Origin: Arthrobacter crystallopoietes
Lineage (GTDB): Bacteria > Actinomycetota > Actinomycetes > Actinomycetales > Micrococcaceae
Length of the DNA stretch: 64,000 bases
Direction of reading: 5' to 3'
NCBI RefSeq assembly: GCF_017603825.1
Contig: NZ_CP072014.1
Location: forward strand, 2,356,001-2,420,000
The notes beneath the pieces were generated by a model, which had not been told where the DNA came from, did no database searches, and saw only the letters and a program-made list of their open reading frames with translations. The position numbers were made by a program, and so were the translations under genes. This document shows, in pieces, positions 444 to 48,736 of this stretch (position 1 is its first letter; each line of letters opens with the position of its first letter).

Positions 444-1621
444 GCGCAGGCCTCCTGGATAGTCGTGGAGCCGGACTGGAAGCCGCCGAAACGGTGGGGT
501 GCGAACGGGGCCAAGGACAATTCGGGTTCCTTGCCGGCCAGGGCTTGGGCCATCAGTTTGCCCGTGCCTACGGAGAGCCCGATGCCGGCTCCTTCGTGGC
601 CGGAGGCGTGCCAGAGCCCGGGCGTCCGTTCGTCGTGGCCGATAACCGGAAGGTGATCCGGGCAGTACGGGCGGAAGCCGTGGTAGTGGCGCAGGATCTT
701 CACCTTGTTGAGGAAGGGGAACAGCGCGGTGGCGTTCTCTGCCATGGCCCGCAGCGCGGGTACGCTGACGGTGCTGTCGAATCCGACGCGTTCACGACTG
801 GAGCCGATCAGGATGCTGCCGGCGGGGGTTCCCTCTACCACTGGTGAAGACTGGAGGCCGGCGTCCGAGCTGCCCACGTTGTCGACGTACTCGGCGGCGT
901 AGACCTTGTGGTGGATCATCGGCGGTAGCGGTTCAGTGACCATGACAAAGCCGCGGCGCGGTTTGACCGGAACGTTCACGCCGGCCAGCGAGGCTAGGTC
1001 GGCAGCCCAGGTGCCCGTGGCATTGGCCACCGCGCCGGCGGCGAAGTTCCCGGCGCTTGTGCGCACTCCGGTGACCTTTCCGCCGTCGTTCAAGAAGCCG
1101 GTGACCTTGGTATTCGGGAAGAACCGGGCGCCGTTGGCCCGGGCCAGGCGCAGCAGGTGTGCGGCGGCGAGCATGGGCTGGACCTGGCTGTCCTCGGGAT
1201 AGTAGGCGGCGCCGAGGGCGCCGGGGGAGATGTTCGGCTCAAGGTCCCGCAACTGATCCGTGCTCAGTTCCCGGGCGTCGACTCCGTAGCTGCGCTGTGC
1301 GGCGGTGAGCCGGTTGAGCGAGGCCAGGCTGGATTCGCGGGAGGCGACGATGATGCCGCCCTTGCCCTCGAACTCCCAGAGGTCGGCGTGCTCGGCAAGG
1401 TCCTGCTTCCAGACTCCAAGCGAATACTTGGTCAGTTCAAGCTCCGGGCCGGGTTCCTTGTCCGAAACCAGGATGTTGCCTTCGCAGGCCGAGGAGGTGC
1501 CGCTGGCGGGGAGGCCCCGTTCAAGTACGGTGACGGACAGGCCTTCAAGGGTGGCGAAGTAGGCGATCGCGGAGCCGACAACGCCGGCGCCGACGACAAG
1601 GACGTCGCTGGCTGGATTCAT
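440..1621 (-). CDS. FAD-dependent oxidoreductase, DadA-like (D-hydroxyproline dehydrogenase catalytic subunit)
   Basis: A 393-residue DAO/DadA-family flavoenzyme. Residues about 7-35 hold the FAD Rossmann motif VVGAGVVGSAIAY with an LERG strand end; the C-terminal part carries GLWHASGHEGAGIGLS, typical of the FAD-contacting end of DadA, SoxB and HcnC proteins. It likely oxidises D-4-hydroxyproline to 1-pyrroline-4-hydroxy-2-carboxylate. It follows the GntR gene by 3 bases and overlaps the 2Fe-2S gene by 4. D-proline or another D-amino acid is a possible alternative substrate; the epimerase and deaminase nearby favour hydroxyproline. Confidence 0.78.
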   Translation of the reverse strand: MNPASDVLVVGAGVVGSAIAYFATLEGLSVTVLERGLPASGTSSACEGNILVSDKEPGPELELTKYSLGVWKQDLAEHADLWEFEGKGGIIVASRESSLASLNRLTAAQRSYGVDARELSTDQLRDLEPNISPGALGAAYYPEDSQVQPMLAAAHLLRLARANGARFFPNTKVTGFLNDGGKVTGVRTSAGNFAAGAVANATGTWAADLASLAGVNVPVKPRRGFVMVTEPLPPMIHHKVYAAEYVDNVGSSDAGLQSSPVVEGTPAGSILIGSSRERVGFDSTVSVPALRAMAENATALFPFLNKVKILRHYHGFRPYCPDHLPVIGHDERTPGLWHASGHEGAGIGLSVGTGKLMAQALAGKEPELSLAPFAPHRFGGFQSGSTTIQEACA

Positions 1622-38485: not shown

Positions 38486-39088
38486 ATGGGCATCAGCATG
38501 AAGACCACCTCCGGCAAGCTCCTCGCCTCCGCAGCCCTCGTCGCCACGGCGGCGGGAGTCGCCGGCCTCGGCACCTACGGCGCGTTCACCAGCTCCACGG
38601 CAGCTGATCAGCAGGTCACAGCCGGCACGGTGAAGGTCAATCTCACCGAAGGCGCCACCGGTGGCCTGATCGTTCCGGCCAGCGACATTCTCCCCGGAGA
38701 CACCATCGAGCGGGTCGTCACCCTGAAGAACACCGGTTCGTCCCAGCTGGGCGGCGTCATGCTGACCACTTCAACGTCCACGCCGACGGATCTGACCAGC
38801 AATGCTGCAACCGGTCTGCAGCTGAGGATCGAACGCTGCCCCGCAGGCTGGGCCGGCGCTCCCGGTGCATACACCTGCGGCAGCACTGCTGAAACCGTTT
38901 TGGCCAGCACTTCCGTCATCGGGGTAGACCGTCAGCTGGCTCAGCTGACGTCGCTGACTGCCGGTCAGAGCGACAGTCTGAAGATCCAGCTGGTCCTGCC
39001 CGCCGCGGCCAACGATGACTTCCAGGGTGACCAGAGCAAGGTGGCGTTCTCCTTCAATGCCACCGGCCGCAACGCGCAAACCAAGTAA
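38486..39088 (+). CDS. TasA/camelysin-like SipW-dependent matrix protein
   Basis: A 200-residue secreted protein with an N-terminal signal (LLASAALVATAAGVAGLGTYGAF) followed by TSSTAADQQVTAGTV and a jelly-roll-like domain with VPASDILPGDTIERVVTLKN, features of TasA and CalY. These proteins form fibres of biofilm matrix and are cut by a dedicated SipW signal peptidase; one is encoded next. Start: ATG 38486 is used; ATG 38498 (MKTTS) is also possible. Confidence 0.8.
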   Translation: MGISMKTTSGKLLASAALVATAAGVAGLGTYGAFTSSTAADQQVTAGTVKVNLTEGATGGLIVPASDILPGDTIERVVTLKNTGSSQLGGVMLTTSTSTPTDLTSNAATGLQLRIERCPAGWAGAPGAYTCGSTAETVLASTSVIGVDRQLAQLTSLTAGQSDSLKIQLVLPAAANDDFQGDQSKVAFSFNATGRNAQTK

Positions 39089-39107
39089 GCCTGACTGCAC
39101 CTAACGT

Positions 39108-39144
39108 GGTTGATCCGCCCTTCTTGGGGGAGGGCGGATCAACC
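39108..39144 (+). promoter_or_regulatory. 13-base perfect hairpin between tasA-like and sipW-like genes
   Basis: GGTTGATCCGCCC (39108-39120) pairs with its complement at 39132-39144 over an 11-base loop. There is no T tract. Such a hairpin could stabilise the upstream message or partly stop transcription, so that matrix protein is made in excess over its peptidase. Confidence 0.5.
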
Positions 39145-39202
39145 GGTCATACCCGGCCCGCATCAGATCCTCAGCACGCGAAAACAAAGGGAAAGCGCGA
39201 CA

Positions 39203-39832
39203 ATGAGCACCGTCTCGGTACCACCCGCCCAGCAAGCCCACAGCACTGAACCTCATACGAGTCGCGCCCGCCGCATACTGAACCGGATCCTGACTGTCAT
39301 CACCACCCTGCTCCTCGTCCTGGCTGCCGCAGTCTTCCTGCTGCTGGCCGTCGGGCCCCGAGTGTTCGGCTACCAGACAGCCACCATGCTGACCGGTTCA
39401 ATGTCGCCGCTGATCAATCCGGGCGACGTCGTCGTCACGGCTCCCGTTGATGTGGCGGACCTGGCCGTCGGCGACATCATCACCTACCACATTCCCATCG
39501 AGGACCACCGGGTAGAGACGCACCGGATCGTCGAGATCACCACCGACGGCGGCGCCACGGCGGTACGCACCAAGGGCGACGCCAACAACGGCGTGGATCC
39601 GTGGACGGCCACCCTGCAGGGCGAGCAGGTCTACCGCCACGCCTTCACGGTTCCCTATCTGGGCACGGCCATCCGCACCCTGCGCGAGCCGGTAGTCCTG
39701 AACACGCTGATGTACGGCGCTCCCGCAGTGCTGGTCATCGGCGCCCTGGCCGCTATCTGGCGCAAAGATCCGGAAGCAGAAACGAATACGAATAACGACG
39801 CCGGTGCTCACCCCGGCGGGATGCCCGCCTAA
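39203..39832 (+). CDS. SipW-like signal peptidase I
   Basis: A 209-residue ER-type signal peptidase. The N-terminal helix (ILTVITTLLLVLAAAVFLLL) precedes the nucleophile Ser in LTGSMSPLINPGDVV; the general base is His in VETHRIVEI, as in SipW and archaeal/eukaryotic types, rather than Lys. TKGDANNGVDPW is a further family block. A second membrane helix (APAVLVIGALAAIW) lies near the end. It likely matures the TasA-like protein. Confidence 0.87.
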   Translation: MSTVSVPPAQQAHSTEPHTSRARRILNRILTVITTLLLVLAAAVFLLLAVGPRVFGYQTATMLTGSMSPLINPGDVVVTAPVDVADLAVGDIITYHIPIEDHRVETHRIVEITTDGGATAVRTKGDANNGVDPWTATLQGEQVYRHAFTVPYLGTAIRTLREPVVLNTLMYGAPAVLVIGALAAIWRKDPEAETNTNNDAGAHPGGMPA

Positions 39833-39838
39833 GCAGCG

Positions 39839-39874
39839 AAAAGGGGCGCAGCCGAAGTGGCCACACCCCTTTTT
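39839..39874. terminator. Bidirectional terminator between sipW-like and csbD genes
   Basis: AAAAGGGG (39839-39846) and CCCCTTTTT (39866-39874) form a stem with T tracts on both strands, between convergent genes. Confidence 0.6.
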
Positions 39875-39887
39875 CGCAGTAAATTAA

Positions 39888-40064
39888 TCAGTCTTTCTTG
39901 AAAGCGTCTTTGATCTTTTCGCCGGCGCCCTTGAGGTCTGCCTTGGTCTGGTCCGTCTGGCCCTCGGCCCGCAGGCTCTCGTCGTCAGTAGCGTTTCCGG
40001 CTGCTTCCTTGGCCTTGCCGCCTGCCTTTTCTGCGGCGTTGCCGATCTTGTCATCCAAACCCAT
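39888..40064 (-). CDS. CsbD-like stress protein
   Basis: A 58-residue hydrophilic protein of the CsbD family: repeated Ala/Lys/Glu helices (GNAAEKAGGKAKEAAG, then AEGQTDQTKADLKGAGEK). B. subtilis CsbD belongs to the SigB general stress regulon. AAGGAG lies before ATG 40064. Its presence beside the SDR and acetyltransferase genes is in keeping with a stress region. Confidence 0.85.
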   Translation of the reverse strand: MGLDDKIGNAAEKAGGKAKEAAGNATDDESLRAEGQTDQTKADLKGAGEKIKDAFKKD

Positions 40065-40276
40065 GGTGTTTCTCCTTCGGTCGGTGGTTGCTGCCGATAT
40101 TTCGTCGGCAGGCCGGACATTCCTAACCCTACTTACTATGGCCGTTGTTCGCCACCACGCAGGAACTTTGAGCCATTCCTGAGCCTCAACACGGGCGGTT
40201 GAGGTCCGGCAGCCAGACTTGAAGCACACGATCATTTTCCGGCCGAAGGGCCCGCTCGACATGCGAGAGGCAGGAC

Positions 40277-40765
40277 ATGGAACCGAGCACCAGCAGGAAA
40301 GGCGCGGCGGTTCTGTGGCGCCGGCTCATCGCTGTCTTGCTGCTTGTTCCCAGCCTCCTCGGCATTCCCGCGATCGCCCAGGCTGCCTTCACCGGCCAGG
40401 CCTACGGTGCGCTCACCGTCAGCGCCGCCAAACTCATCGCGCCGGCTGCCAGCGCCACGACTATTACGGCCACATGCGAGAGATACCAGCAGGCATCTCG
40501 CCAGCTGGTTATCACTGCCACCAGCTACGGCAAGGTCCTCCACGCCAATGTCCATGAATTCACCGTCATCAATCCAAGCGGGATCATCGTCCACAACGGT
40601 GACCCTGCCACCCCGATAGGCCGGCAATACTCGCAGATCGGGGATAAGAACCTTATGTCGGGCACATGGCGGTGGGAGCTCCGCGGCAAGTACCAGGTCC
40701 CCGGCAGTACCAACGTCTGGACCGGCCAGCCGCTCACCGGCCAGCTGAACATCGTCTGCAACTGA
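40277..40765 (+). CDS. Secreted hypothetical protein, 162 residues
   Basis: The protein opens with a basic stretch and signal helix (WRRLIAVLLLVPSLLGIPAIAQA, cleavage after AQA) and continues as a beta-rich domain containing two cysteines (TCERY near 67 and the final VCN) that could pair. Its place between the TasA/SipW pair and the large surface protein suggests a role in the same envelope structure. No family is recognised. Confidence 0.62.
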   Translation: MEPSTSRKGAAVLWRRLIAVLLLVPSLLGIPAIAQAAFTGQAYGALTVSAAKLIAPAASATTITATCERYQQASRQLVITATSYGKVLHANVHEFTVINPSGIIVHNGDPATPIGRQYSQIGDKNLMSGTWRWELRGKYQVPGSTNVWTGQPLTGQLNIVCN

Positions 40766-40897
40766 TCGCGCCAGCGGGAAACGGCGACCCAGCTGCCACT
40801 GATCCGGTGCGCCGTGACCCTTCGTAAAACGCATCGTATAACCAGTTTTTCCGCGTGTTTACGCGGCACAGTCGGGTAACGACTATGGTTTTTACAA

Positions 40898-41158
40898 GTG
40901 GCGATTGGTAGCTTGGACGTATTGGAAAGGGTCCTGCTGGGGAGCAGGACACTCGCACGCGGTGCTCGGGGCGGCACCAGTTGGCGTGATGCGGGAACGC
41001 GCACCGTACCGCATCACCATCCGCTGCGGCCCTTCGTGGGGGAGGACCAAGGCACCATACCCCGCGGTTTCGCGGGGCATATGAGGTAGAGGTTTGACGT
41101 CGAACCGGTAGGCAGCGAAGCCGCCCGGTGTGACTGCGACAACCGCTTGGGGGAGTTC
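40898..41158 (+). promoter_or_regulatory. Structured 5' leader RNA upstream of the large surface protein gene
   Basis: About 240 bases contain at least five clear hairpins in a row: GTCCTGCT/AGCAGGAC (40931-40950), GGTGC/GCACC (40961-40978), a 9-base perfect stem (40986-40994 with 41009-41017), CCCCGCG/CGCGGGG (41060-41077), and GGTT/AACC leading into ACCGG/CCGGT (41091-41130). The density is far above what neighbouring gaps show. It ends just before the ribosome site, so it may be a riboswitch or another cis-acting RNA. No known class fits. Confidence 0.5.
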
Positions 41159-44100
41159 ATGAGGTATTTCCCTCTCCGGGGAACCGGAGGTGAGAGGTCC
41201 AGTTCCGCTGTGCCCCGGCACCACCGGCGCGCAGCAGCCAGAAGCCGCGGAAGTGTCCGCGCGAAATCCGGCCGGCATACCGTGCTCACGATAATGCGCA
41301 CCGCCCTGGCCACGGCACTAATGTTCGCCATGCTCGTGCTCGGCTGGCCTGCCGCCGCGATGGCCACACCAACGGCAACGCCATCGCCCACCGCCACCGC
41401 TTCGGCAACAGCTCCGGCCGATGACAATGGAGCCGCCAGGACGGTCAAGGAACCCACGGACGATTCCACCACCCGCGAGCTGAGCACTCAGGCGCCGGAG
41501 CTCTCCGGCATCTCGCCATCGCCCACGCCGCAGACCTCGCCCACCGCTCCAGACACAACGGCCCCGGCAGAGACAACCACGCCCAACCCGGGCCCGGCTC
41601 CGGCAGGCACCACGCCCCCGACAACCCCACCACCAACGACGACGACGCCGGTAGAGGTCGTCCCGACCACACCTCCGCCCACCACCACGCCGCCGGTCGT
41701 CACCCCGCCGCCCACTTCGGTCACCCCGCCGGCCACGGTGGACCCGCCGGCCACCGGCGGAACCACCACGCCCCCGCCCGCCACGGACGGCGGCAACGTC
41801 GACATTCCCGTTCCGCCGCCGGTCGACAATATCGATCCGGGCACGCCCACGGAACCCGAGGCCCCGCCCGCGGACAACGGCGAAGGCAGCCAGGACAACC
41901 CGGACAACACCGGCGCCGAAGCCGTCCCGGAAACCCCCGGCAGCCCGGACGGCGCAGAGCCCGTCGCGGTCGCCCCGAACGTCACCGTCGTCGAAGGCAA
42001 GCCCACGCCCAAGCAGGACGCCAACGGCAACAGCCTCGAAAAGCCCGAGCCCCGGGGCGATGACGATGACAATGACGGCATCAAGAACGCGGACGTCCTG
42101 GTCAACGTCAACTGGCAGGTCAACGGCCGGTCCGCCAGCCACGAGGAGGTCTCCAGCCTCGGCGTCAACGCCCACCTGCTGCTGGCCCCCGCCTCCACCA
42201 ACGGCGCGCATTTCGGCGTCCCCGCCATCGGTTTCGAGGACGGTGGCCGCGTCACCATCAAAGAGGGCTTCTCGCCCGGCCAGCAGTGCCGCCTGCTCTC
42301 CCGCTCCCTCGCCGGCAAGGCGCTCTCGGACAGCGGCGCCACCGTTGCACTCAAAGCCGGCGTGAACTCGTTCACCATCACCAACGCGCTGGACTGCAGC
42401 AACCAGGAGGGTGACCTGCAGCTGCTGAAGACCGCGGGCACTCCGGTTCCGGGCGAGGCCGGCAGCTGGAGCATTGGCTACGACATCACCGTCACCAACA
42501 CCTCCCGCAGTGCGGACAACACCTACAGCCTCTCGGACACGCTCAGCTTCGGCCCCGGTGTCACCATCAAGTCCGCCACCTGGACCCGCACCGGTGGCGC
42601 CCCGGCGTCGGGATCCTGGGCCAGCCCCGATGCCAACCGGACCACCGTCCTCGCCCCGGCCGGCACGGTGATCGGCCATAGCCCGGACGGCGACACCGTC
42701 CACACCTACAGCGTGCGCGCCGTGGTCGGCGTGCCCGCCGGTACCCGCGCCGCCCACCTGGACTGCCGGATCGACAGCGGCAGCGGCACCGGGCTGACCA
42801 GCTCCGTGCAGCTGAACGGGCTCAGCGCCAAGGCTTGCCAGCCGCTGCCCGTGACGCTCAAGGCCACCAACAGCTGGAACATCAACGGCAACGTGTACGC
42901 CGGTGGCAGCCAGCCCGATGGCTTCGCGGCCGAGCTGGTCCTGCCGGACGGCGAGGGAGAGCCGGCTCCGGGCAAGTGGGGCACCGTGTATGCGTACGAC
43001 GCCGGCACCCGCCTTGCGCTCGGAGCCAACCTCACGCTGCCGACCGGCTGTGCGGTTGCCGAATCGGAGGGCCTGGGCAAGATCACCAAGCTGATGGTCG
43101 CCAACGAGGTCGCCGTCACCAACACCATCGACTGCCAGCAGCAGCTCACCTTGATCAAGGCCGTCGGCCCGCAGCCGCCGACCGGCATCAGCCCGGCTGA
43201 CTGGAAGCTCTCCGCCACCCCGGCCGGAGGCGAAGCCGCCGCCGTCGCCGGCGCCACCGGAATCGTCGGCAGCGTGGCCGCCGGCACCGCCTATGATCTC
43301 TCCGAAACGGCCGGGTTCATCGGCGGCACGGAGTTCCTCGCCAGCGAGTGGTCCTGCGAACTGGCCAGCGGCAGCGGCACCTTGTACCAGGAAGGAACCG
43401 TCGTGGTCCCGTCCTACGGGCAGAGCATCGTTTGCTCCATTGTCAGCAGCTGGGAAGCGCCGGCCCTGAACGTCACCAAGTCCGCCCGCGAGCCGGTCAA
43501 GGTTACCGGCGCCGGGGAAGGCGTCTGGGATGTGGTGTACGAGGTCTCCGTGGAGAACCCCTCCGTCGTTGCCGGCACCATCTACAACCTGACCGACACC
43601 CTTGATTTCGGCGACGGCGTGGACATCCTGAAGGCGCGCTGGATGCTCTTGGGAACGTCCGAGAGCGGCGAATGGCCGAATCCCGAAGCGGATCCTGCCG
43701 CTGTGCTCGCCACCGACCGCAGCCTGGAACTTTTGGACAGCCACCTCTACCTGGTCAATGTGCGGATCCAGCTGGATCCGAACATTCCGGCTGAGCATCT
43801 GGACTGCGTGGCGGACGCTGCGTTCGGAACCGGGCTGAGGAACACCGTGCAGCTCGACGAAGAGGGCGCCGGCAGCATCTGCATTCCCGCGCCCGGCGGG
43901 GAGCCGGTCTTCACCGCAGCACCTGGAGCCGGCCAGTCGGGAGCCAGCGCACCTGATATCGAACGTGCGGAAACGGACCTCATGCCGGTTCCGCCGCTCG
44001 GCGGCCTGCCCGAAACTCCCGAGGCGACGAAGGCCACTGAGGACCAGCAGCCCGCCGGCCCGGGGGAGTCACAGGCGGAGGCAGAGCCGTCACTGGCAGC

Positions 44101-44245
44101 AGACGGTACGATCCGGCCGCAACTGCTCCGCCTGGATCCCGCATTCGCACTGTCTCAAGCGGGAACCCTCTCCGCTCTCGCCGCGGCGATGCTCCTGATC
44201 GGCGCGTATGGCGCAGTGCTCTTCGCAGCCCGCAAACGCTCCTGA
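41159..44245 (+). CDS. Large repetitive surface protein (about 1000 residues)
   Basis: From ATG 41159 the product is 1028 residues. It has a long basic leader before a signal helix (residues ~46-65, ending AAAMA), a Pro/Thr/Asp-rich stalk (about 65-300), and an array of beta-rich repeats: two DUF11-like modules (about 430-565 and 785-930) and two related modules with TNALDC/TNTIDC ends. A linker, a C-terminal helix and ARKRS follow, but no LPXTG-type motif. ATG 41294 would give a standard signal peptide and is an alternative start. It is likely a cell-surface adhesin or matrix scaffold. Confidence 0.78.
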   Translation: MRYFPLRGTGGERSSSAVPRHHRRAAARSRGSVRAKSGRHTVLTIMRTALATALMFAMLVLGWPAAAMATPTATPSPTATASATAPADDNGAARTVKEPTDDSTTRELSTQAPELSGISPSPTPQTSPTAPDTTAPAETTTPNPGPAPAGTTPPTTPPPTTTTPVEVVPTTPPPTTTPPVVTPPPTSVTPPATVDPPATGGTTTPPPATDGGNVDIPVPPPVDNIDPGTPTEPEAPPADNGEGSQDNPDNTGAEAVPETPGSPDGAEPVAVAPNVTVVEGKPTPKQDANGNSLEKPEPRGDDDDNDGIKNADVLVNVNWQVNGRSASHEEVSSLGVNAHLLLAPASTNGAHFGVPAIGFEDGGRVTIKEGFSPGQQCRLLSRSLAGKALSDSGATVALKAGVNSFTITNALDCSNQEGDLQLLKTAGTPVPGEAGSWSIGYDITVTNTSRSADNTYSLSDTLSFGPGVTIKSATWTRTGGAPASGSWASPDANRTTVLAPAGTVIGHSPDGDTVHTYSVRAVVGVPAGTRAAHLDCRIDSGSGTGLTSSVQLNGLSAKACQPLPVTLKATNSWNINGNVYAGGSQPDGFAAELVLPDGEGEPAPGKWGTVYAYDAGTRLALGANLTLPTGCAVAESEGLGKITKLMVANEVAVTNTIDCQQQLTLIKAVGPQPPTGISPADWKLSATPAGGEAAAVAGATGIVGSVAAGTAYDLSETAGFIGGTEFLASEWSCELASGSGTLYQEGTVVVPSYGQSIVCSIVSSWEAPALNVTKSAREPVKVTGAGEGVWDVVYEVSVENPSVVAGTIYNLTDTLDFGDGVDILKARWMLLGTSESGEWPNPEADPAAVLATDRSLELLDSHLYLVNVRIQLDPNIPAEHLDCVADAAFGTGLRNTVQLDEEGAGSICIPAPGGEPVFTAAPGAGQSGASAPDIERAETDLMPVPPLGGLPETPEATKATEDQQPAGPGESQAEAEPSLAADGTIRPQLLRLDPAFALSQAGTLSALAAAMLLIGAYGAVLFAARKRS

Positions 44246-44621: not shown

Positions 44622-45836
44622 TCACACGGTTGCGGTCGGCCCCACCTCTGCACTCATGACATCAACGCTTGGCGTATGCGTGCGGCGGATCGCTTCCGTA
44701 ACAACACCCTCCAGAGAACCCGTCCGCTCCAGCGCATCACGCTGCTGCCGCGCCCCGGTTCCCCTGCCACGCAACTGCCCAAACAGCCGCTGTACCTGCG
44801 CCTCATCCCCGCTCTCGGAAAGCGCCTCGCCAACGTGCTCCAGCAGCAAGTCGATTACATCGAAGGCGTTGCAGGGCCTGGCCGTCACGGGGTGCAGTAG
44901 ATCGCCTTCGATTCCCCACCGGCTCGCTTGCCAGGCCGCGAGCCGTAGGATGGCAACGGGTACGGGTTCCGGAGCCTTTCCGGACCGCCAGTCCCGGGCA
45001 GCCGTTTCTACAAGGGCCCGGGTGAGGGCGGCGATCAACACGGTATCGTCGGCGTCCAAGCAGACGTCGTTGACCCGGATTTCCACCGTCGGGTAGTTGG
45101 TGGACAGCCGGGCGTCAAAGTACAGCATCGCTTTGTCCAGCACGACGCCGGTTGCGAGCATCTGCTCTATAGTGCGGTAATAGGCAGCCGCCGAGCCGAA
45201 GATTTCCAGCGGCCCGGTGGACGGCCAACGCGACCAGGCTTGGCCGCGGAAGCTGGCATAGCCGGTATCGATGCCCTGCGAGAATGGGGAATTGCTGGCC
45301 AGAGCCCCCAGGACGGGGAGCCAAATCCGGATGCGGTCCAGGACGGCCACGCCTTCTTCATCCGATTCCACACTGACGTGGACGTGGCATCCGGACGTCA
45401 ACTGCTCCCGCGCCGTCAGGCCATAACGCGCGATCATGATGCCTACACGTTCATCAGGTGCGGGGTGGGGGACCGTGGGCAGGGGAGCCATTGCCAGGGC
45501 AGCCGTGCGGGCCCCAACCTCCTTGGCGCACTCATCGGCCAAAGCTCTTCCCGCCCGGATATCCGCGGCCAGCTCCGCGAGGGAGCTGTGCGGCCTGCTG
45601 ATGATCTCGATCTGCTCCTGCTGGAATTCCGTTGCCAGCTGTGAGCCTTTGAACTCCGGAAGTGGCGGGTCAGCGGAATTATTCCGCACAAGCTCCGGCA
45701 GCAGTTGCCGGTAGCAGTCCATCAGCGCCAGAGCGCGCGGCACAGCCTGTCCACTGTCGGGATCCACCAACAACAGTTCCTCTTCGACTCCGAAGGTACG
45801 CATGCAGCCCGGCCGTTCTCGTAATTGATGGATCAT
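44622..45836 (-). CDS. Carboxylate-amine ligase, YbdK family, copy 2
   Basis: A 404-residue paralogue of the protein at 20201. It shares MRTFGVEEELLLVDPDSGQ, TSGCHVHVSVESDEEGVAVL and the ARLSTNYPTVEIRVNDVC blocks, and ends like copy 1 with VVTEAIRRTHTPSVDV. Identity by eye is roughly half, so it is an old duplication. ATG 45836 or 45803 may be the start; the conserved domain begins near the second. Confidence 0.8.
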   Translation of the reverse strand: MIHQLRERPGCMRTFGVEEELLLVDPDSGQAVPRALALMDCYRQLLPELVRNNSADPPLPEFKGSQLATEFQQEQIEIISRPHSSLAELAADIRAGRALADECAKEVGARTAALAMAPLPTVPHPAPDERVGIMIARYGLTAREQLTSGCHVHVSVESDEEGVAVLDRIRIWLPVLGALASNSPFSQGIDTGYASFRGQAWSRWPSTGPLEIFGSAAAYYRTIEQMLATGVVLDKAMLYFDARLSTNYPTVEIRVNDVCLDADDTVLIAALTRALVETAARDWRSGKAPEPVPVAILRLAAWQASRWGIEGDLLHPVTARPCNAFDVIDLLLEHVGEALSESGDEAQVQRLFGQLRGRGTGARQQRDALERTGSLEGVVTEAIRRTHTPSVDVMSAEVGPTATV

Positions 45837-45993
45837 GACTCGGTCTTCAACATTATGAGCCCAGCATGACCGCGACAATATGCACCGGTCGATTGGCTGA
45901 ATGGCCGGGGAGCGGCGGACTCCAAGGTTTCGCCAACCACCCGTTGCTAAAACTAAAGCATCTCGTCACCATCCAGAGAGGTCCGGTGTGCAC

Positions 45994-47105: not shown

Positions 47106-47185
47106 ACCCTTTGATCGCCCGTATACTTCACTACGGGAATGGCCTGTCGGGGAAAGGCAGGCATCGTAGGGGGAGCTTCAATTTA

Positions 47186-48736
47186 ATGCGTACAACCGTC
47201 GAGGAACCGAGTCACGACATCAGGGAACACATTCGCACCGTGGAACCAGAACAGAAAACGGTCGGTCCACTGCCGGCCCCATCGCCAATGTCTGCAGGTT
47301 CTGTTGGCCAGGACCGAAGTTGGGGTAGATCCCTAAAGAACAGACTGGTTCTGACTGACACGCTCGTCGTCGCGGCTTCTCTGTTCCTCGCCCAGCTCCT
47401 GCGATTTGGCGTCACTGAGCAGGAACTCCAGTTGGCTGGGGCCGCCCAGACATACTCGATGGTTTCGGTGGTTCTCGGGCTCATGTGGCTCGTGGCCCTC
47501 ATGATTACCCAAAGCCGCGCGCTGCCGGTCCTCGGAGTGGGAAATGACGAGTACCGCCGCGTAATTAACGCAACTATCGGAACCTTCGGCGCTTTCGCCA
47601 TCGCGGCCATGCTGCTGAAGTACGACGTCGCACGAGGCTACCTCGCCATCGCCTTGCCCGTAGGCCTCGGTCTGCTCCTCCTATCCCGGCATGCTTGGCG
47701 CTTGTGGCTAGGTCGGCAGCGTGCAAAGGGGAACTACACAGACCGCGCCATCATCGTCGGCTCGGTCTCGGACGTTACTTTCGTGGGCGACAAAATTTTC
47801 AAGTCCCCGCAGACGGGCTACCGGCTGCTGGGCGCAGCCATTCGCGGAACTGAGCAATCCGAGGTCACGCTTGCGACAGGCCACAGGATTCCCGTCATCA
47901 GCTCTCCGGAATCCGTAGTGCAGGCGGTCAAGGACAATAACTTTGACACTGTAATCGTCGCCGGCACAGCACAGAACGGCCAGCGCTACCTCAAGGAACT
48001 GAGCTGGGAGCTCGAGGGGACCAACACCTCGCTCGTTGTAGCCAGCAAGCTGGTCGACGTTGCTGGTCCGCGAATTCACTGGCGGCCGGTCGAAGGCCTT
48101 CCGTTGATGAATGTTGAGATGCCGCAGTACGACGGCGCCAAGTTCACCTGGAAGCGCTCCCTCGACGTTGTCGCCTCTGCCTTCGGCCTTATTGTTCTTT
48201 CGCCCGTCATTCTGGCCATCGCCATCGCGATCAAGCTAGACAATCCAGGCCCGGTGTTTTTCCGTCAGGAGCGCGTAGGCATCCAGGGCAGCCGGTTCCA
48301 CATGATGAAGTTTCGCTCCATGGTCGTCGACGCCGAGGCGCGGCTGAAGGAATTGTCGGAGCACAACGAGGGCAACGGCACCTTGTTCAAGATGAAGCGT
48401 GATCCGCGGGTAACCCGCGTCGGTGCTTTCATCCGTAAGTACTCCTTGGATGAAGTCCCGCAGCTCTGGAACGTCCTGATTGGGGATATGAGCCTCGTGG
48501 GCCCGCGCCCCCCACTCGAGCGGGAAGTCGCCGTGTATGAGCAGCACACGCACCGCCGTCTGCTGGTCCGTCCCGGAATCACCGGCTTGTGGCAGGTCAG
48601 CGGCCGCTCGGACCTCTCCTGGGAAGAGAGCGTCCGCCTCGACCTCTACTACGTTGAAAACTGGTCTCTCGCCGGCGACCTGACCATCATCATCCGCACC
48701 ATCAAGGCAGTCGTCGCCAAAGACGGAGCCTACTAA
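47186..48736 (+). CDS. Exopolysaccharide polyprenyl glycosylphosphotransferase (initiating sugar transferase)
   Basis: A 516-residue enzyme: four or five N-terminal helices (about 55-170), a CoA-binding-like Rossmann region (RAIIVGSVSDVTFVG), and a C-terminal bacterial sugar transferase domain starting KRSLDVVASAFGLIVLSP and including FFRQERVG, LDEVPQLWNVLIGDMSLVGP and the RPGITGLWQVSGRS block. It transfers a sugar-1-phosphate to the lipid carrier, beginning the repeat unit. ATG 47186 lies about 11 bases after GGGGAG. Confidence 0.9.
   Translation: MRTTVEEPSHDIREHIRTVEPEQKTVGPLPAPSPMSAGSVGQDRSWGRSLKNRLVLTDTLVVAASLFLAQLLRFGVTEQELQLAGAAQTYSMVSVVLGLMWLVALMITQSRALPVLGVGNDEYRRVINATIGTFGAFAIAAMLLKYDVARGYLAIALPVGLGLLLLSRHAWRLWLGRQRAKGNYTDRAIIVGSVSDVTFVGDKIFKSPQTGYRLLGAAIRGTEQSEVTLATGHRIPVISSPESVVQAVKDNNFDTVIVAGTAQNGQRYLKELSWELEGTNTSLVVASKLVDVAGPRIHWRPVEGLPLMNVEMPQYDGAKFTWKRSLDVVASAFGLIVLSPVILAIAIAIKLDNPGPVFFRQERVGIQGSRFHMMKFRSMVVDAEARLKELSEHNEGNGTLFKMKRDPRVTRVGAFIRKYSLDEVPQLWNVLIGDMSLVGPRPPLEREVAVYEQHTHRRLLVRPGITGLWQVSGRSDLSWEESVRLDLYYVENWSLAGDLTIIIRTIKAVVAKDGAY

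Follow-up and report, generated by a model that had tools for sequence, protein, structure and literature searches.

The 261 bases that immediately precede a gene for a surface-type protein in Arthrobacter crystallopoietes (positions 40898-41158 of the window, i.e. of the entire 64,000-nucleotide stretch of DNA analyzed here) raise the question of whether they specify a cis-acting RNA and, if so, how such an RNA might act. The host genome is a single contig of 4.38 Mb, and the features described below lie on the forward strand of the window unless stated otherwise. The initial annotation had described tandem stems of 8, 9 and 7 bp followed by an ACCGG/CCGGT arm before the ribosome site, and these are indeed present: the 8-bp hairpin P1 with a GGGG loop (40931..40950; arms 40931-40938/40943-40950), the 9-bp hairpin P3 (40986..41017; arms 40986-40994/41009-41017), the 7-bp hairpin P5 (41060..41077; arms 41060-41066/41071-41077) and the hairpin P6 (41104..41129), in which the ACCGG/CCGGT arms (41104-41108/41125-41129) enclose an inner GGC-AGCGAA-GCC, are all recovered in the minimum-energy fold, from which a further stem, P2 (GGTGC/GCACC), is absent. 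The energy of this fold is -119.1 kcal/mol versus -109.7 +/- 5.0 for shuffled sequences (z -1.90) and is equalled by 7 of 200 shuffles, so that by energy alone the leader is mildly unusual. Across the full leaders of nine genomes of the genus the folding z ranges from -2.35 to -0.10, and by energy the full leaders separate weakly from shuffled sequences; the leader rises above chance because of its conservation and the changes found on both sides of its base pairs.

The genus was sampled with ten genomes, of which G000 (the window's own), G001, G003 and G007 constitute a set of four close genomes. A DNA search recovered the leader in seven of the ten (94-100% identity in four of them; 73-79%, across a shorter stretch, in the other three), while homologues of the downstream protein (query residues 301-1028) are present in nine. 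The genomes G006 and G004, whose proteins show 43% and 42% identity respectively, gave no DNA match, yet the leader is found upstream of the gene in both. It thus accompanies the gene in 9/9 genomes that possess it, and the tenth genome, G008, lacks both. Scanning of genome contigs with the exact core pattern retrieved six records, belonging to Arthrobacter crystallopoietes, A. mangrovi, A. mobilis, A. hankyongi, sp. SF27 and sp. VKM Ac-2550; in the NCBI taxonomy Crystallibacter crystallopoietes is placed in the family Micrococcaceae. A covariance model built solely from the four near-identical close leaders recovered those of G009, G002 and G005 at 62-64 bits, that of G006 at 42.7 bits and that of G004 at 35.4 bits in a search of 61,750 bases, which returned 14 matches in all, i.e. 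ten leaders (one locus being represented twice) and four weak matches of at most 14.7 bits. Comparison of seven leader pairs with shuffled sequences localized the conservation. Over the 60 bases before the TATGG motif, six pairs do not rise above shuffles (z -1.8 to +1.0), and the sister pair G006-G004 reaches z 3.1. The element running from CTCG to GGC shows 72-86% identity between lineages and 94% between G006 and G004 (z 4.6 to 9.1). Identity over the whole core is 54-74%, the weakest comparisons being those with G004 (58% with G000, z 3.2; 54% with G009, z 1.6). The 3' part is at shuffle level when the G000 and G005 groups are compared with G006 and G004 (z -1.3 to 1.1), and the G000 and G005 groups can be aligned with each other over it at 62-63% identity (z 5.3-5.9), indicating that conservation between them extends beyond the core. 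The sample comprises only about four independent lineages, namely the G000-like genomes, G005/G002/G009, G006 and G004. As for the dense structure that had been proposed over about 240 bases, its stems are real, and the conservation is concentrated mainly in 40884-41017 rather than in the whole stretch.

This interval of the window (40884-41017) contains the entire series of conserved motifs, which occur in the same order in 9/9 leaders: TATGG, TTG[AG]TA, TT(T)[GT]G, a P1 segment of variable length, CTCGCACG, 1-2 bases, GGTG[CT], 1-2 bases, GGGG, 2 bases, GCACC, [AT]G[TC]TG and then P3, beginning with GTG. The first of these, conserved as TATGG in all nine leaders, is part of a putative -10 element (TATGGT, 40884..40889), and the distance from its first base to TTG[AG]TA is exactly 21 bases in 9/9 leaders, even though the search pattern permitted variable spacing. 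Since the region 40700-41300 contains no sigma-70 consensus promoter, the element remains putative; it would place the transcript start at about 40896. A start downstream of about 41080 had been named as damaging to the idea of a leader RNA, and the conserved -10-like element instead lies upstream of 40898. A terminator-like stem with a T-rich tail (40870-40884) precedes the leader and overlaps with the -10-like element; it is the one such site in 40700-41300 (shuffle mean 0.5), and may mark the end of the upstream gene or be due to chance. Downstream of the predicted start lies the conserved core, which spans about 113 bases (40905-41017) and reads, as RNA, UUGRUA..UUKG, hairpin P1, CUCGCACG, hairpin P2 with GGGG in its loop, GUUGG and hairpin P3. 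Its 5' motif, TTGRTA-NN-TT(T)KG(A) (40905..40918), is found in 9/9 leaders at what would be the 5' end of the transcript. P1 varies between lineages in length and sequence, with the hairpin retained. It is followed by the strand b (CTCGCACG, 40952..40959), which is invariant in 9/9 leaders and complementary to the strand c (GGTGC..GGG), and by P2 (40961..40978), comprising strand c GGTGC, the GGGG loop and strand d GCACC, with both stem and loop present in 9/9 leaders and with a geometry that excludes the b-c hairpin. In the more variable 3' part, P5 occurs in the close clade only, and P6 in the four close genomes. The ribosome-binding site is TTGGGGGAG (41147..41155, with TTGGGGGA at 41147-41154), and TTGGGGG precedes the ATG in 9/9 leaders.

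The stems were evaluated on an alignment of seven distinct rows fitted to the covariance model. As this alignment favors structure and sets the 5' end of G004 in the wrong place, P1 in G004 and G006 is best judged from the arms of the individual lineages, and for both P1 and P3 these arms were taken from the folds of the individual leaders. On the fitted alignment, with its bias towards structure, 97.2% of the cells are paired, whereas sliding the partners gives 30-56% and shuffling 81.8%, and 11 of the 22 pairs, distributed over P1 and P3, are changed on both sides; the observed pairing values were reached by 0/500 shuffles on four measures and by 1/500 on the fifth. P3 by itself has 98.3% of its cells paired on this alignment and three doubly changed pairs. 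Its arms are GTGATGCGG/CCGCATCAC in the window, GTGCAGCGG/CCGCTGCAC in G006 and GTGCAGC/GCTGCAC in G004; in G005, G002 and G009 the stem is of a CCGG/CCGG type, interrupted by a mismatch in G002 and by a bulge in the other two. P1 similarly uses other letters in each lineage with retention of pairing, and P5 shows a compensatory C-G to T-A change within the close clade (CCCCGCG/CGCGGGG in G000 and G007; CCCTGCG/CGCAGGG in G001 and G003). RNAalifold applied to the fitted alignment returns P1, P2 and P3. The stem letters of P2 hardly vary, so that it is upheld by conservation alone and has no covariation support; the b-c pairing, whose letters are nearly unchanged, is likewise without covariation. 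Against shuffles, the core stands out in the four close genomes, with folding z values of -3.6 to -3.1, and less so in the remaining five (-0.7 to -1.8); the P1 segment gives -3.9 to -4.5 in the close genomes, with G004 at -2.3, G009 at -2.1, G002 at -1.4, G005 at -1.0 and G006 at -0.3, and P3 gives -3.4 to -3.9 in five leaders and -1.3 to -1.9 in four. At the level of sequence, then, the secondary structure is preserved by changes on both sides of P1 and P3, which is the outcome that the initial annotation had looked for in relatives.

Searches for known families support the description of the leader as unclassified. No Rfam family, and no riboswitch family in particular, overlaps the window leader in a search of 39500-42500 at E up to 10. 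At four related loci (L006, L027, L028 and L007), searched at E up to 5, nine matches were obtained, every one of them scoring under the gathering threshold and lying outside the leader; one of these sub-gathering matches, to Guanidine-III, lies at L028:4136-4192, on the other strand and upstream of the L028 leader. The 6C sRNA (RF01066) gave no match in the window's own genome, with the control matching in 1/14 genomes only and below the family cut-off. Beyond the genus, a family-wide search (395 genomes, E up to 0.1) yielded matches in 38 genomes, 29 of them outside the genus, with a best score of 33.5 bits for a match that is antisense to a coding frame. Matches of at least 70 bits are confined to the genus across the 395 family genomes and 396 order genomes, which are overlapping sets. 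By eye, 19 of the 21 non-genus loci inspected (L061 and L066 being left out) resemble coding or unrelated DNA and were rejected as copies of the leader, among them L046, which is antisense to a 224-aa frame; eight further matches came without a locus. L048 (G256), from another genus, has a seemingly intergenic match of 23.1 bits (1501-1620, minus strand) with CCGCACCGGTGC..GTGCCAGACCAGTTGGCGG and with three mismatched pairs in P3, and may be a chance match or a distant relative. The order-wide search (396 genomes, E up to 0.001) gave four matches, namely the own genome, L046, L127 (28.4 bits) and L128 (27.1 bits), the last two known from their alignment alone. The DNA matches L012-L019 were judged by eye to be chance, and neither a plasmid search nor a search of IMG/VR with the exact pattern gave any match. 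Since the model was calibrated on random sequence, its E-values in GC-rich DNA look too optimistic. The family thus appears undescribed as far as Rfam 15 and open-access papers reach, although a structured 5' leader as such is already a known kind of element.

The gene downstream of the leader (41159..44245) encodes a protein of 1,028 aa, for which the epithet 'giant' in the initial annotation was an overstatement. By eye, it has a signal-like N-terminus and a C-terminal membrane segment, along with a Thr/Pro-rich stretch; its DUF11-like match is weak (E 0.018, 15.8 bits) and below the Pfam cut-off. As the next frame (44622-45878), of the GCS2 family, is on the opposite strand, the leader probably serves this single gene. 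Upstream of the surface gene are a TasA/camelysin-like gene, a gene for a SipW-like signal peptidase and a 162-aa frame. The wider surroundings (38486-39832 and 47111-48736) have a matrix-like character, with the TasA/camelysin-like and SipW-like genes and, further on, a bacterial sugar transferase. Between the TasA-like and SipW-like genes there is a perfect 11-bp inverted repeat (TTGATCCGCCC/GGGCGGATCAA with the loop TTCTTGGGGGA, 39110-39142), which is followed by no T-tract. Six genomes of the genus contain a paralogous DUF11-like surface gene, which is likewise preceded by a conserved leader rich in hairpins (L031:561-850 in the own genome, C1 about 2330138-2330427; also L029, L030, L032, L033 and L074), typified by a CCCG-TTGGGGA-CGGG hairpin in the close genomes, GCAGCGT and [CT]TCGCACCTG; YTCGCAC and G-rich loops are common to this leader and the one studied here. 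Among 197 genomes, domain-level homologues of the protein were detected in nine genomes of other genera, some in frames of 3,500-3,850 aa, and these nine gave no confident match to the RNA (G115 and G143 match weakly, at 16.8 bits).

These observations are best accommodated by a lineage-specific, cis-acting 5'-UTR leader RNA of about 260 bases that adjusts the surface protein via translation or mRNA stability, a reading to which we assign a probability of roughly 0.6. That the element is a conserved structured leader RNA is highly likely, and that it acts on its own mRNA is likely. It would be transcribed as the 5' leader of the gene and affect translation initiation and/or the mRNA lifetime of one protein, and thereby probably tunes the amount of surface protein that is made. 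In the proposed arrangement the core would start about 10 bases past the transcript start, with P1, P2 and P3 joined by invariant stretches, and the faster-evolving 3' part would lead into the ribosome site. The initial proposal of a new cis-regulatory RNA accordingly survives as far as a conserved, structured and unclassified leader before a surface-protein gene is concerned, and finds no support in its second-messenger component: the CGGTAGGCAGCGAAGCC arm on which that hint depended is part of the 3' hairpin in the four closest genomes, and the other five leaders lack it (the aligned P6 stretch differs in G005, G002 and G009 and is missing from the shorter leaders of G006 and G004), and no riboswitch match was obtained.

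Leaders with stabilizing 5' hairpins have been described for some S-layer mRNAs, and the present leader might similarly be a constitutive device, whose 5' hairpins would guard an abundant surface-protein mRNA against decay and preserve its translatability, with no sensing involved. This alternative deserves to be entertained as a possibility, if not as our preferred one, given that the core sits at the predicted 5' end, that there is apparently one target gene, for a surface-type protein, and that much of the 3' part is free to vary; however, a mere stabilizer has no obvious need for the CUCGCACG stretch and GGGG loop that are invariant in 9/9 leaders.

These invariant elements could find an explanation in a competition between strands. 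The likeliest working part of the leader would be the trio CUCGCAC (b), GGUGC..GGGG (c) and GCACC (d): b is complementary to GUGC..GGG of c, as seen in predicted duplexes from six leaders, and the GGUGC of c to the GCACC of d, and the two pairings are mutually exclusive. In the proposed mechanism c would pair with b or d, never with both, and the balance might be tipped by a bound protein, a metabolite, temperature or co-transcriptional folding. Folded in isolation, the b..d segment forms c-d in G006, G004 and the four close genomes, whereas G005, G002 and G009 prefer b-c. The energy minima of the b..c and c..d segments (-5.8/-7.8 kcal/mol in G000, -10.4/-9.8 in G005, -9.0/-6.6 in both G002 and G009, -6.1/-7.3 in G006 and -4.7/-8.4 in G004) differ by 0.6 to 3.7 kcal/mol. 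In the models, such competition would account for the invariance of b, the GGGG loop and d; alternatively, an internal-loop arrangement fits as well, with some bases of b pairing beside P2 with the GC that follows GUUG. Folding the isolated b..c segment of the four close genomes gives as its minimum a weak hairpin other than b-c, which makes switching less probable, and the full-length window leader folds with neither P2 nor b-c. Regulated switching, as opposed to constitutive stabilization, is hence regarded as less likely than not. A more elaborate version, in which the three-strand module flips upon binding of a ligand or protein as a bistable RNA class controlling the DUF11-like protein, and forms a shared regulon with the leader of the paralogue, we consider rather improbable.

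A further way in which such a leader might act is through access to the ribosome site. The predicted probability that this site is unpaired is 0.02-0.08 in the four close genomes, where it can be engaged by a hairpin with codons 4-6 (GGGGGAG/TTCCCTC, 41149..41174, in the window) that is not conserved, and 0.16-0.60 in the other five; at 14 other TTGGGGGA sites, besides those of the gene and its paralogue, it is 0.10-0.81. Strong pairing being restricted to the four close genomes, sequestering of the ribosome site was rejected as the conserved mechanism, and translational repression via such a helix would at best be a feature of that clade. The TTGGGGGA sequence was also considered as a signal specific to surface genes and discarded: TTGGGGGA-N(2-8)-ATG occurs at 16 sites in the own genome (versus one for the reversed pattern), which precede many kinds of frames, four of them shorter than 30 codons, and it looks like a general G-rich ribosome site of this genome. 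Similarly, a conserved long-range helix between the 5' motif and GCACC[AT]GUUGG was rejected, different bases being used among the six leaders compared (G000 -13.4, G004 -13.9, G006 -10.2, G009 -7.9, G002 -5.3 and G005 -3.2).

A metabolite riboswitch, with the core as its aptamer and the variable 3' part as its expression platform, is unlikely. The layout, in which a core with invariant stretches is succeeded by a variable part reaching to the ribosome site, and the competing b-c and c-d pairings are both in keeping with such a device, but the occurrence in one genus before one gene only, a target gene that suggests no ligand, and a window leader with neither a terminator nor a conserved helix sequestering the ribosome site all speak against it. 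That the conservation reflects a promoter or operator in the DNA, or a leader peptide, in place of RNA folding is very unlikely. Here the core does adjoin the -10-like element, and eight of the nine leaders have open frames of more than 50 codons that begin in the 5' part and run across the core; however, P1 and P3 have changed in both of their arms with pairing retained, and the nine leaders share no conserved reading frame across the core, which answers the concern that the region might encode a conserved protein. The distance from TTGRTA to CTCGCACG is 47, 43, 42 or 62 bases, so that the frame reads the motif in all three phases among the relatives, and in G004 the frame from the TTGRTA start closes after 15 codons. 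Finally, an ANTAR protein could bind paired hexaloop hairpins and free or block the ribosome site, and although such proteins occur in 10/10 genomes of the genus (four matches in the own genome; 0/14 control genomes) and a strict rule (two A1..G4 hexaloop hairpins with a linker of 2-25) finds pairs in 4/9 leaders, just before the ribosome site in G001, G003 and G007 and near the 5' end in G006, the likelihood of this is slight, as the window leader has one such hairpin and no pair, G005, G002, G009 and G004 also lack a pair, 41/500 shuffles contain one by chance, and A1/G4 hexaloop hairpins are absent from the window core, those of the P1 segment occurring in G006 and G004 only.

Among known systems, S-layer mRNAs have long structured 5' UTRs; the leader described here likewise stands before a surface-protein gene with hairpins near its predicted 5' end, and is distinguished by a different gene family and by invariant motifs between the hairpins. 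To our knowledge, post-transcriptional control of surface or matrix proteins has been little explored in the relatives of Arthrobacter. The resemblance to the c-di-GMP-I (GEMM) riboswitch, pointed out in the initial annotation, consists of a short stretch of P6 that recalls one arm, but no match to that family is found at E up to 10, and the arm is present in four close genomes only. The ANTAR-target RNAs of Actinobacteria (PMC8164766) are comparable in their tandem hairpins before the ribosome site, with ANTAR proteins encoded in all ten genomes of the genus, and differ in their dual A1/G4 hexaloops, which the window leader does not have. The structured leaders and orphan riboswitch candidates uncovered by comparative genomics (e.g. 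PMC2864571, PMC6429828, PMC11109978 and PMC8632094) share with the present leader conserved hairpins, paired changes and invariant stretches, whereas here there is one genus, one gene family and no Rfam overlap in the leaders searched; in the main text of PMC11109978 and PMC8632094 the terms Arthrobacter, Micrococc-, Actinobacteria and Actinomycet- have 0 occurrences. With paired changes, one target gene and a core spanning about 113 bases, the system is small enough for direct testing in a soil bacterium, and, if the switching holds true, it would add a class of regulatory RNA and might reveal the signal that governs the cell surface in this genus.
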